Shown here piece by piece: positions 12,807-33,087 of a stretch of 64,000 nucleotides of DNA (position 1 is the stretch's first letter; each line of letters opens with the position of its first letter). The position numbers and the translations under genes were made by a program. Below the pieces are notes generated by a model. The model had not been told where the DNA came from and searched no databases. It was given only the letters and a program-made list of their open reading frames with translations. The DNA comes from Methanococcoides methylutens MM1 (GTDB lineage: Archaea; Halobacteriota; Methanosarcinia; Methanosarcinales; Methanosarcinaceae): contig NZ_CP009518.1 of assembly GCF_000970325.1 (NCBI RefSeq), positions 744,001-808,000 of the forward strand, in the 5' to 3' direction.

Positions 12807-13583
12807 TCATTCGTTCTTTTCTTCCTTTTTTCCGCTTAACTCTATCCTGTTTCGAAGTTCATTGATGCCCAGGGTTGGTGCCACTTTTTTCGGGCACACT
12901 GCAACACATTTGTAAACGGTATCGCATCCCCATACCCCGGAATCCGAATTAACGATGTCAAGACGCTGTTCCCTGTATTCGTCATCTTCCCTGGGGTCAA
13001 GGTCAAAACGCCATGCCTTTGCAAGGGCTGCCGGTCCGTAGTATTTATTGTCCCTTGCTGCAACAGGACATGATCCGTGACAGATCGCACAGAGGATGCA
13101 GTTCGTATATTGCTCAAGCCTTACCTGCATCTCCTGGTCCACAATGTTCTCCTTTTCAGGAACATCCTCCTTTAGCTCAAGCCAGGGCCTTACACTGTCA
13201 AGAAGGGAATAGAATGCTTCCATATCCACAACAAGGTCGCGTATGACTTCCAGGTTTGGAAGAGGTTCGATCAGTATCTCATCATTCCCTTCTTCGTTCA
13301 TCTTGTTCGCGATCAGTACTTCCGGGTCACCTTCGTTGGTAGGTTCTTTTCTCAGGTCAGATACCTGTGTCCTGCAGGCAAGCCTTGGGACTCTGTTGAT
13401 AAGCATTCCGCAGCTTCCACAGACAGCACCCCTGCAGGAGTATCGGAACGTCAGGCTTCCGTCCAGCTTTTCCTGGACATAGAACAATGCTTCCAGTACG
13501 TTCATCCCGGGTCTGTCCTCGACCTCAAATACCTCGTACCAGACCTTTTCCCCATCCTGTCTCCTGATCTTCAGTTTCATCAT
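12807..13583 (-). CDS. sdhB: Succinate dehydrogenase/fumarate reductase iron-sulfur subunit
   Basis: Electron-transfer subunit of a succinate:acceptor or fumarate reductase. 258 residues. The N-terminal plant-type 2Fe-2S cluster motif is CRGAVCGSC plus a later Cys (LACRTQ). The C-terminal bacterial-ferredoxin-like segments CILCAICHGSCP and CDTVYKCVAVCPKK carry the 4Fe-4S/3Fe-4S ligands. The length excludes fusion to a CCG heterodisulfide-reductase-like domain as in TfrB. Its ATG overlaps the sdhA stop by one base. No membrane-anchor gene follows before the terminator-like repeat. Confidence 0.92.
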   Translation of the reverse strand: MMKLKIRRQDGEKVWYEVFEVEDRPGMNVLEALFYVQEKLDGSLTFRYSCRGAVCGSCGMLINRVPRLACRTQVSDLRKEPTNEGDPEVLIANKMNEEGNDEILIEPLPNLEVIRDLVVDMEAFYSLLDSVRPWLELKEDVPEKENIVDQEMQVRLEQYTNCILCAICHGSCPVAARDNKYYGPAALAKAWRFDLDPREDDEYREQRLDIVNSDSGVWGCDTVYKCVAVCPKKVAPTLGINELRNRIELSGKKEEKNE

Positions 13584-15271
13584 CAGTACGTCCTCCTCTG
13601 TGGCTGGAATGTCGTTATGTTCACTTCCTTATATTCCAGTCTGGGTCCTTCCGGTGTAAGATAGGCGAGTGTATGCTTCAGCCAGTTCCCGTCGTCTCTT
13701 TCAAGGAAATCCGTCCTGTAATGGGCACCCCTGCTCTCCTCACGTACCAGTGCCCCTAATGCGATCGCATGTGCCAGGTCCAGCATGCCCTTAAGTTCGA
13801 TGGCATTGAGCAGTTCAAGGTTGAACTCCTTTGCAGTTGTCTTTACCTTCAGGGACTTTGCTCTCTCTTCCAGCTTTTTGATGTCTTCGATCGCCTTCTG
13901 AAGCTTCTTCTTTTCCCTGAAAACACCGACATTCTCCTGCATGGTCTTCTTTAGTTTTTCACTGATGCCGGAGTAACTTTCACCATCACTTCCCATCATG
14001 TCGGAAATGGCAGTTCTTTCATTGTTAAGGGCCTGTTCCAGGGCATCATCTTCTTCACTTTCTTCTTTTTCTTCCAGTGATGCAACATAATCTGCTGCAT
14101 GAACTCCTGCCCTTCTTCCAAAGACCACGGTGTCAAGAAGGGAATTTCCTCCCAGCCGGTTTGCACCATGGACACTTATACAGGCACATTCGCCAACTGC
14201 ATAGAGACCGTTTGCAGGGGTTGCACCGTCCTTGTCCGAACTGATGCCACCCATGGAGTAATGTTGTCCGGGTTGTACGGGAATTGGTTCCTCAACGGGG
14301 TCGATGCCTGCAAAATCGATAGATATCTGCCGGATTCCTCCCAGCCTTTTTTCAATAAGATCTTTCCCGAGGTGCGTGATGTCCAGATGGACATATCCTC
14401 CGGGGAAACCTCTTCCCTCATCGATCTCCTGTTGTATTGACCTTGCAACGATATCTCTTGGTGCCAGTTCCATTGAAGAGGCTGCATAGTCCTTCATAAA
14501 TCTTTCATGGTCCTTGTTATAGAGGTAACCGCCCTCCCCCCTTGCACCTTCTGTGATCAGAATATTAGTTCCCCACAATGTAGTGGGATGGAACTGAACG
14601 AACTCCATGTCCTGCATTGGCACTCCTGCACGGTAGGCAAGGCTTATGCCAAATCCCTTGTTGATGATGGCATTGGTGGATCTCTCGTAGATCCGCCCGT
14701 AGCCTCCTGTAGCAAGGACCGTTGCCTTTGTTTTGAAGACCTCCAGCTCGGAGTTCAGCAGGTTCATGGCTACAAAACCTTGGCACCTGTTGTCCTCGAT
14801 GACAATTTTTGTCACAAGCCATTCCCTGTAGACCTTGATACCTGCACGCAAGACCCTTTCATGAAGCGTATGGAGAAGGTTGTGTCCGGTCCTATCGCCG
14901 GCATAGCAGGTCCTGGGGAACCCTGCTCCTCCAAAAGGACGCTGTGCGATAGTACCATCATCCTTCCTTGAGAAATTGGTGCCCCAGTGTTCCATTTCAA
15001 TTACCCTGTCAGGAGCTTCCCTGCACAATATCTCAACTGTATCCTGGTCGGCAAGGTAGTCGCTTCCCTTTACGGTATCGAATGCATGGGATTCCCAGCT
15101 GTCGTCCGATCCCAGGGATGCATTGATCCCTCCCTGTGCGGCCCCGGAATGGCTGCGTATGGGGGGTACCTTGGAGATGATCGCAACATCAACTCCCTTT
15201 TCGTGAAGCTCGATGGCACACCTGAGGCCTGAAAGCCCGCCTCCTATCACTACTACATCGTGTGTTATCAT
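13583..15271 (-). CDS. sdhA: Succinate dehydrogenase/fumarate reductase flavoprotein subunit
   Basis: Catalytic FAD subunit interconverting succinate and fumarate. 562 residues. The N-terminal dinucleotide-binding VVIGGGLSGLRCA is present, with HSGAAQGG at about 41-48, where the histidine is the usual covalent FAD ligand. The FAD/substrate segments QFHPTTLWG, TEGARGEGG and the Arg-rich active-site region (SMELAPRDIVARS) follow. The start ATG overlaps the fumC stop as ATGA, implying translational coupling with fumarase. In a methanogen this branch probably makes or reduces fumarate in the incomplete TCA pathway. Confidence 0.93.
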   Translation of the reverse strand: MITHDVVVIGGGLSGLRCAIELHEKGVDVAIISKVPPIRSHSGAAQGGINASLGSDDSWESHAFDTVKGSDYLADQDTVEILCREAPDRVIEMEHWGTNFSRKDDGTIAQRPFGGAGFPRTCYAGDRTGHNLLHTLHERVLRAGIKVYREWLVTKIVIEDNRCQGFVAMNLLNSELEVFKTKATVLATGGYGRIYERSTNAIINKGFGISLAYRAGVPMQDMEFVQFHPTTLWGTNILITEGARGEGGYLYNKDHERFMKDYAASSMELAPRDIVARSIQQEIDEGRGFPGGYVHLDITHLGKDLIEKRLGGIRQISIDFAGIDPVEEPIPVQPGQHYSMGGISSDKDGATPANGLYAVGECACISVHGANRLGGNSLLDTVVFGRRAGVHAADYVASLEEKEESEEDDALEQALNNERTAISDMMGSDGESYSGISEKLKKTMQENVGVFREKKKLQKAIEDIKKLEERAKSLKVKTTAKEFNLELLNAIELKGMLDLAHAIALGALVREESRGAHYRTDFLERDDGNWLKHTLAYLTPEGPRLEYKEVNITTFQPQRRTY

Positions 15272-16623
15272 TTCCTCACTCCAGTCATACTGATGGGGTC
15301 AAGAAGCTCTTCTGCTTTTTTTTCATCCATTATGTCCATCTCTTTTACGATCTCGATTATGCTCCTGTTCTTTCGGTGTGCAGTGTATGCGATCTCTGCT
15401 GCTTTCTCATAACCTATGCTGGTCGCTAGTATAGTGACAAGAGCAAGACTCTGCTTTGATAGCTCCTCACATCGTTCCCTGTTAGCGGCGATGCCCCTGA
15501 GGCATTTTTCTGTAAAGGAGATGGATGCACCGGTGAGTATCTCTATGGAGCTTAGAAGATCATAGGCAAGAATGGGGGTAAATACATTGAGCTCGAACTG
15601 TCCGCCCTGTGCCGCCATGGTTATTGCCGTATCGTTCCCGATGATCTGGAAACATGCCATGTTCAGCATCTCGGCCATTACAGGGTTCACTTTTCCGGGC
15701 ATGATGGAAGAGCCGGGTTGTACTGCCGGGAGGTTTATCTCCCCGATACCTGTTCGCGGACCGCTTGAAAGAAGACGCAGGTCATTTGCTATCTTGATGA
15801 GGCTAACGGCAATACCTCGCATTGCAGCCGATGCTCCGAGGATCGCTTCTGCAGACTGGGTGGCCTCAAATAGATTATGGGCAAGCCTGAAATCCTGCCC
15901 GGTGATCACTTTCATTTCTTTTATTGCGATCCGGCTGAAATCTTCCGGCGTGTTAAGTCCGGTACCGACGGCAGTACCACCCATGTTCAGTTCCTAAAGG
16001 CCATCAAGTGAGATCTCAAGCCCTTTGATACCCAGTTCCAGCATTTGTGCATATCCAGAGAATTCCTGGCCGAGTGTTACGGGCACTGCATCCTGCAGAT
16101 GTGTTCTTCCGGGCTTGACGATGTCCATGAACTCAGATGATTTCTCGGCAAGAACGATCAACATTTCCGCAAGTGCGGGCATGAGTTCTGCATTGATGGT
16201 TTCCACAGCTGCAATGTGTATAGCAGTGTGGGTGGTATCATTCGAGGACTGTGACATGTTCACATGGTCGTTCGGGTGAACGATGTCGTAATTTCCCTTT
16301 TCAAAACCAAGGATCTCAAGTGCTCTGTTTGCAATGACCTCATTCGCGTTCATATTCTGCGAGGTACCTGCACCTGACTGGAATGCATCCAGCACGAATT
16401 GGTCATCGAACTTACCTTCCCTCACTTCGGACGCGGCCCGGATGATGGCATTCCCTTTTGTGCTGTCAAGCTTTCCGGCTTCCATATTGGCATGTGTGGA
16501 TGCCATTTTTATTGCGGCCTGTGCTTTTATGAATGAGGGTGGTAGCCTCTGATTACTAACTTTGAAATTATCAACTGCTCTTGCTGTCTGAGGACCATAA
16601 TAGGCATCTTCAGGCACTTCCAC
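15268..16623 (-). CDS. fumC: Class II fumarase interrupted by one in-frame UAG
   Basis: Fumarate hydratase, fumarate to malate. The minus-strand frame is continuous except for a single TAG at 15994-15996 (codon 210 counting from GTG 16623). Before it lie PEDAYYGPQTARAV, QSSNDTTHTA and PGRTHLQDAVP; after it, ELNMGGTAVGTGLNT and the signature GSSIMPGKVNP. All family blocks are present, and read through the protein is about 451-461 aa, the usual size. The first usable start is GTG 16623, but homologous residues (IRLEKDTLGEV) extend upstream to 16653 without ATG/GTG/TTG. Either UAG is decoded as pyrrolysine or the gene is decaying. The tight overlap with sdhA argues for expression. Confidence 0.85.
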
Positions 16624-16704
16624 TTCCCCAAGTGTATCTTTCTCTAAACGGATATAACCCCCCCGTTTGTTTGCCTTCTATTATTTTACTGTTTACATTA
16701 TGTA

Positions 16705-31017: not shown

Positions 31018-32694
31018 TCAATTATCGAATTCAGGATTATCAATAAAAGGAACATATCTGCACCGACACCAGCCTTCCCCATTTTCGTTCTTATCGTGGG
31101 TGCATTTTTGGCAGGGTATTGGTCTTTCAATCAGAGCTTCTTGAATAGTCCAAATTCTACCATCAAGACGTTGACACTCCTCACACGCATCGACTGATTG
31201 AATTTCGACTTTTTTTACACCTTCTTGCTTATATTGCATCAATTCCACTTTTGCCAAGTTCTACAAATCTTCAAAAAATCTCAAACCGCTTTGATACTTG
31301 ATAAACGCATTGCGTAAATAGAACATCTGGAGCTTAAAGGTATCAGTGGTTTGCAATATCAAGTCCTCGTATAATGCAATACAGACAGCTATGGGACTTA
31401 CCCTTTCATCGGATGTTTTAGTTAATTGTTTCAACTTGTCATTGAAAGAGTTTATAGTGATTCCATATTCCCTCAAATAAAAGAACTCGTCAGTTGCAAT
31501 TGCTTCATCGTGAGTTAAGTGCTTTGATGGGTACAACACTTGTGATGACCTTACATAGATAAAATTCCCACAGTGGGGACACTTTTTCTTCTTTTTTGGA
31601 GTTTTGTCTAACGTTACTTCACAATAAGGACAGACAGCCGTAGAACTCTCTTCGGAATTAGCACTTGGACTTTGTTTTGGAGTAGGTGCATTCCCCTTAG
31701 AGCGCATTTCTTTCAGTCGTTCTTTGACAACATTATGCGTAGTTGTCAAAAGGGTATGTATGGCTGTTTGAAATTCACTATTGTTGATAATCGAAGGTAG
31801 TGGTGCATAACGTGCATTTTCTGGTAATGAAATGTTTGCAAAAATGATTGATTTTTCTTTTCCAAAAGATACATCAAGAGAATAGAATGGGAATGAAGAT
31901 TTTTCGAATTCGTTTATCAATTGTTCATTCAGGATTTCTATGAATAGTTCTGGATAATTTTTGATATATCGCTTATTCTTAAACCCTACAGCATTACTTA
32001 ATGATATGATTTCATCTGCGCTTAAGTCAATTTTTAGTATGTATTTTGCAATTAATAAATCGTTATTAACATTTTCTCCCTTCGCTGACTCTATTACCCT
32101 TGATAACGTTGCTTCGTCTTTGTGTGCGATGGCTGATATCACAAGGGAACTTAATGAATATGATTGGAACGAATTGTTTTTGTGATATTTTCTAAGAAGC
32201 ATGATGGTGTCTGCAGCTTTTTTGAAGTTGCCATAAATTATGTGCCTTTCAAGCCCATAATAGAACACAAACACATATCCAATATCAACAGGTTGAGTGA
32301 TATCACGTAGCCAATTAAGATACACCCAACGTTGCCCGGGAGTCATTGATTCATAACTTGGATAGTAACCAATACTTTCATTTGGATTTATCTTTTCATT
32401 GGAATTGATCGGCAATCCTGAAGACAATAGGCTGGGTTCTTCACCGAAGCTAAATTCTATCGTAAAAAACTCAGTTTCAAATGATGTGTTTTTTTGTGGC
32501 TTATAATTTTTATATTTCCCATCTTTGAACCACAATAAACTGAAAACATTGTCTGCAGATGCCAACTGATCAAAATATGGAACAATTTTATTCGTATTGG
32601 AGTTAGATTTTGATTTCACATCATTGATATGTTTATCAACTGTCTCTAACGACTTGTTTTCTTTTTTCCCTTTTAAAAAATCAAAGAACCCCAT
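31018..32694 (-). CDS. TerB_N-domain protein with in-frame UAG before a Cys-rich C-terminal domain
   Basis: ATG 32694 opens 477 codons to a TAG at 31261-31263. The same frame then runs 81 more codons to TGA at 31018, giving 558 residues if UAG is read. N-terminal MGFFDFLKGKKE; TerB_N-like block PSYESMTPGQRWVYLNWL followed by DIGYVFVFYYGLERH (about 125-165); zinc ribbon CPYCEVTLDK/CPHCGNFIYV (about 362-390). After the UAG: VELMQYKQEGVKKVEIQS, ACEECQRLDGRIWTIQEAL and CQKCT/GWCRCRYVP, a Cys-rich segment resembling phage minor-head C-termini and, as I recall, the C-terminus of TerB_N proteins. The UAG may encode pyrrolysine, or this is a broken gene. TTG 31257 could alternatively start a separate 79-aa protein. 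Confidence 0.6.
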
Positions 32695-33087
32695 CTTCTT
32701 CCACCTTGTTATAAGATAAATTTCCAAATAGTCTAACCATTTAATGCACTCCCCTACTATACCGAATGGAAGAAATTTGAATGTATATAAAATTTATGAA
32801 ATGTGTGTAGAAGAGGTGGATGATTGTGGGTTAATCTTATCGATTTTAAAAAAGAAAGTGGGGTTAGAAGAGCTGTTTAGTAAATTTTACAACAAGTCAC
32901 CCTTTGCTACGAGAATGATACTGCGATTTAGGAATAATTTTGCCCCATCCTCACAGGTAACGGTTAAATTGCACTTGACTGTTAAGGTAGGGCAGCATAA
33001 TCTCATGAAACAATAGTTCATATACGAAATAAACCATATTTCTATGTAAATTTAATCAAAATAAGAGGGATTATAAAAAAGTTAGAT
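32695..33087. other. AT-rich spacer between TerB_N gene and tRNA-Glu
   Basis: About 390 bases. A 90-codon plus-strand frame (32744-33016) has no ribosome binding site and no recognisable domain; its middle (VGLEELFSKFYNKSPFATRMILRF) looks somewhat protein-like and could be a remnant. No direct repeat of the tRNA-Glu 3' end was seen. Otherwise nothing identifiable. Confidence 0.35.

Follow-up and report, generated by a model that had tools for sequence, protein, structure and literature searches.

In a class II fumarase/aspartase-family gene (fumC-like, 15268 to 16653, minus strand) of the window, the 64,000-nucleotide stretch of Methanococcoides methylutens MM1 DNA analyzed here, the reading frame runs through an in-frame TAG, which raises the question of whether this codon ends the protein or is translated. 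The frame, read from 16653 to 15268, comprises 461 residues followed by a TGA terminator, and its single internal stop is the TAG at 15994 to 15996 (minus strand; codon 220, corresponding to E. coli FumC residue 223), a probable pyrrolysine (Pyl) codon preceded by GLEISLDGL and followed by ELNMGGTAVGTG. Re-reading of the frame, in which no frameshift was seen over 16653 to 15268, confirmed the description in an earlier note of a fumarase frame interrupted by this TAG alone. The C-terminal end of the frame, AGGAAATGA, overlaps the ATG of the sdhA/frdA flavoprotein gene (13583 to 15271, minus strand), beyond which lies the gene for the sdhB/frdB iron-sulphur subunit (12807 to 13583, minus strand). 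The earlier note had reasoned that sdhA, starting in an ATGA overlap with the fumC-like end, could be coupled to it only if ribosomes passed the UAG. The overlap is present, but the requirement does not hold: a GGAGTGAGG-type ribosome-binding site lies just 5' of the sdhA ATG, inside the end of the fumC-like frame, so that translation of sdhA is not strictly dependent on ribosomes passing the UAG, and coupling is not proof of read-through.

Orthologues were compared in 40 relatives first and then in 112 genomes of the family. Within the genus set (Methanococcoides-like genomes), nine genomes, the window's included, encode an intact orthologue. Alignment of these close relatives at the interrupted residue, a check proposed in the earlier note, reveals TAG exactly at codon 220 in seven of the nine, a conservation that, judged from the aligned copies, is far above chance. 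The six other TAG-bearing orthologues share 82-97% amino acid identity with the window protein, and in the two remaining genus copies a single base separates the codon from TAG, one having CAG (Gln) and the other TGG (Trp). No TAA, TGA, frameshift or further stop was found in the nine intact genus orthologues. Outside the genus, none of the orthologues in the 112 family genomes contains an in-frame stop, and where copies were read, the equivalent codon specifies Leu, Lys, Ala, Glu, Gly, Thr or Phe. A genus tree built from the fumC-like gene and a biotin carboxylase gene, with TAG codons masked, comprises two fully supported clades, and TAG is found in both: one clade is entirely TAG, while the second, with weak support for its internal branching, contains TAG, CAG and TGG copies and one deleted copy. 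The most parsimonious history is probably that TAG is ancestral in the genus, with two one-base reversions (CAG and TGG) and one gene deletion. In the genome with the deleted copy (G006, locus L023, G006:C1:80537-83782), approximately the first 82 fumC codons are followed shortly afterwards by the 3' end of sdhB. This deletion took out most of fumC, sdhA and sdhB; at least one relative (G006) can do without the fumC-like gene.

The loss in G006, together with the absence of a canonical start codon, would fit a pseudogene, and a lone in-frame stop could also stem from a sequencing error. However, decay and sequencing error, both named as alternatives in the earlier note, are exceedingly improbable given an identical TAG in seven independent genomes and strong, similar purifying selection on both halves of the gene. 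In most pairs of the nine copies, dN/dS on either side of the TAG is ∼0.04-0.09, and it is low even with saturated synonymous sites (dS up to ∼1.9); close pairs within the second clade give higher values, up to ∼0.21 upstream and ∼0.12 downstream. Because purifying selection is as strong downstream of the TAG as upstream, the downstream half is still selected as protein. A sense-coded second class II copy covering for a dead gene was also considered and rejected, as no such copy was found in these genomes.

The machinery for reading UAG is encoded in the same genome. A search for pylT/pylS, likewise proposed in the earlier note, recovered a full pylTSBCD cluster, with tRNA-Pyl (anticodon CTA), pylS, pylB, pylC and pylD lying consecutively at G000:C1, ∼301.6-306.0 kb; pylB, pylC and pylD were named by their place in the cluster and by sequence. 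Two mtmB genes in this genome, each with one TAG, served as a positive control. Every searched genome of the genus has a PylS that scores above cut-off, and the TAG-bearing fumC-like copies are confined to this genus. A stop codon kept in seven related species with the protein intact implies that the cell almost certainly reads the codon as pyrrolysine, and we consider it very probable that UAG has a sense meaning in this archaeon and that the fumC-like enzyme carries Pyl at residue 220. The proposal of a Pyl-containing fumarase made in the earlier note thus gains support from pylTSBCD, the conserved TAG and selection on both halves. Mechanistically, PylS would charge tRNA-Pyl(CUA) with pyrrolysine produced by PylBCD, and the charged tRNA would compete with the release factor at UAG and read codon 220 of the fumC-like mRNA straight through, so that the product would be the complete enzyme of 461 residues, its Pyl occupying a variable site without a catalytic role. 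The TAG may have derived by one mutation from the lysine codon AAG, which is present in some sister genera, would have been present already in the genus ancestor, and may have been kept because read-through costs little. We infer Pyl as the inserted residue, efficient read-through and this origin of the codon. Near-cognate decoding that inserts one of the standard amino acids would be compatible with a site that accepts many residues, Lys included, but it is most unlikely where the cognate tRNA (anticodon CUA) is encoded together with the matching synthetase and where TAG copies occur only in a genus with PylS in all searched genomes.

TAG usage was assessed in a 464-kb sample (20 stretches plus the window) from simple longest-ORF calls of ≥150 codons, which are not curated genes. 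The 333 long ORFs terminate in TGA (181), TAA (142) or TAG (10). The ten TAG-ended ORFs include four clear read-through genes (mtmB, mtbB, pylB and the fumC-like gene), as well as a histidine kinase and a biotin carboxylase in which the recognized protein runs on past the TAG. Since TAG is rare as an ORF terminator and most TAG-ended ORFs are read-through candidates, TAG thus appears to act mainly as a sense codon in this genome. The frame at L054:125-1507 was rejected as a TAG-bearing gene: it is a non-coding shadow frame with scattered TGA, TAA and TAG in the same relatives, and provided a negative control for the TAG filter.

Active sites in the class II fumarase/aspartase family are assembled from several subunits, and fragment complementation is therefore conceivable: translation might stop at the UAG and restart at the ATG four codons on (codon 224), which is preceded by an AGGA-like stretch, and the two fragments might assemble into an active enzyme. 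Yet the ATG and the upstream AGGA/AGGAG also occur in species with a sense codon, and are therefore accounted for by protein conservation. With tRNA-Pyl present and competing at every UAG, and with most recognized TAG genes in the sample read through, such a split enzyme is very unlikely.

Structurally, residue 220 lies at the end of a long helix (194-219), just before the conserved GGTAVGTG loop. Across 80 wide homologues this position holds 14 different residues, most often Arg, Leu, Tyr and Lys. Because the position is variable across the family, Pyl, a lysine derivative, is probably tolerated there rather than catalytic, as in Thg1. A PYLIS or other recoding RNA structure was rejected: no Rfam match to a PYLIS-like element was found after the UAG, and the folding of the RNA there is not stronger than that of shuffled sequences (z 0.39 and 0.70). 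Reviews state that UAG decoding as Pyl needs no cis element (PMC8211752, PMC9499178). The UAG could still serve as a regulated stop, terminating translation often, so that pyrrolysine supply would set the enzyme level through the balance between the short and the long product. A condition-dependent meaning of UAG is known in Acetohalobium (PMC8211752), and the TAG codon itself suggests mild retention, having changed twice over the tree versus ∼6.8 changes expected neutrally (P ∼0.03), a rough expectation from fourfold sites that takes no account of uneven rates. However, neither a PYLIS-like element nor an unusual RNA structure that would support such control was found, and Pyl is likely to be available much of the time in a genus that lives on methylated compounds; regulated termination is therefore very unlikely. 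The preferred reading, translation of UAG as Pyl, is itself confronted by an oddity at the N-terminus. An ATG, GTG or TTG is absent from the fumC-like frame at the family's N-terminus, something that would be unexpected of a well-expressed gene, and in the window no usual start codon lies between the ATC at 16651 to 16653 (minus strand) and the upstream in-frame stop. This ATC occupies the family N-terminal position in all nine genus copies and is possibly a conserved non-canonical start. Just upstream is a G-rich run, GGGGGGG (16658 to 16664, minus strand), a candidate ribosome-binding site; the burtonii-type clade has GGGAGGGGG at this position.

The product is a probable fumarase, although profile models leave the choice between fumarase and aspartase undecided. 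It scores 570 bits against NCBIfam fumC_II (TIGR00979; equivalog cut-off 664.75) and 552 bits against NCBIfam aspA (TIGR00839; equivalog cut-off 681.2), below the cut-off in both cases, and 615 bits against the aspartase subfamily model PRK12273, above its cut-off of 510. Identity is 48% to E. coli FumC and 44% to AspA. Of the fumarase identity given in the earlier note, the class II family assignment therefore stands, whereas assignment to FumC at the equivalog level is uncertain. The catalytic residues T184, H185, S315, K321 and N323 align to E. coli FumC, and the class II signature GSSxMPxKxN, the Thr-His pair and the Lys/Asn residues are all present. The gene shares its fold, the catalytic Thr-His and the loop GSSIMPGKVN with the family of class II fumarase FumC and the aspartases AspA and AspB, from which it differs in falling below both equivalog cut-offs and in carrying a TAG codon. 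The Thr-His pair is of the fumarase type, E. coli AspA having Thr-Gln there, and the GAGTS motif is aspartase-like. The predicted structure of the read-through protein, with Lys replacing Pyl, adopts the fumarase/aspartase fold (mean pLDDT 85), with aspartases and fumarases as its best PDB matches (TM ∼0.9). At another locus the genome has a gene for a class I fumarase as well. In the M. mahii genome paper, the gene beside the fumarate reductase is called a fumarase (PMC3017947).

Among known Pyl systems, the methylamine methyltransferases MtmB, MtbB and MttB resemble the fumC-like gene in having a single in-frame TAG that is conserved across species with pylTSBCD and past which the protein continues. 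Pyrrolysine, the 22nd amino acid, is textbook matter for these enzymes, where it is catalytic and its position conserved; in the fumC-like protein, by contrast, residue 220 varies across the family, and Pyl there is probably no more than tolerated. The gene joins a known class, that of Pyl proteins outside the methylamine methyltransferases. The genes for the Pyl-containing Thg1 of Methanosarcina acetivorans and for PylB are likewise non-methyltransferase genes with an acquired TAG, and Thg1 can be active without its Pyl (PMC2933860). While the Thg1 TAG occurs in one species, the fumC-like TAG is genus-wide and lies mid-gene in a carbon-metabolism enzyme. A 2013 survey found other TAG candidates to be generally not conserved between species (PMC3639795), and a literature search found no published report of pyrrolysine in a fumarase. 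A genus-wide TAG flanked on both sides by strongly selected coding sequence, in an enzyme of carbon metabolism, provides good comparative evidence for UAG as an ordinary sense codon, and standard annotation splits real enzymes at such codons. A genome-wide archaeal 'Pyl code', in which all TAG codons are read as Pyl, was reportedly described in a 2025 Science paper; in 'Pyl code' archaea TAG is rare and mostly gene-internal, and the sample analyzed here follows the same pattern.

Several other genes carry in-frame TAG codons. The C-terminal domain of the biotin carboxylase (L056:14466-15959, plus strand; relatives L150-L159) spans an in-frame TAG at codon 412, which is conserved in six species, the rest having mostly Ile or Val; the protein is probably pyruvate carboxylase subunit A, and its gene adjoins a BirA-like gene. 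The ATPase domain of the histidine kinase (L061:13789-16506, minus strand) crosses an in-frame TAG. Matches in relatives (L197-L200) were scored for the presence of a TAG, and each contains one, as does a second, shorter match in three of these relatives. The pylB gene (L050:8360-9601, minus strand) has its own TAG near the C-terminus, resembling the TAG reported in other Methanosarcinaceae pyl biosynthesis genes (PMC2933860). Finally, a TerB_N-domain protein encoded in the window (31018 to 32727, minus strand) contains an in-frame TAG at 31261 to 31263; its C-terminal region across the TAG has homologues in two relatives, making it a second Pyl candidate within the window.
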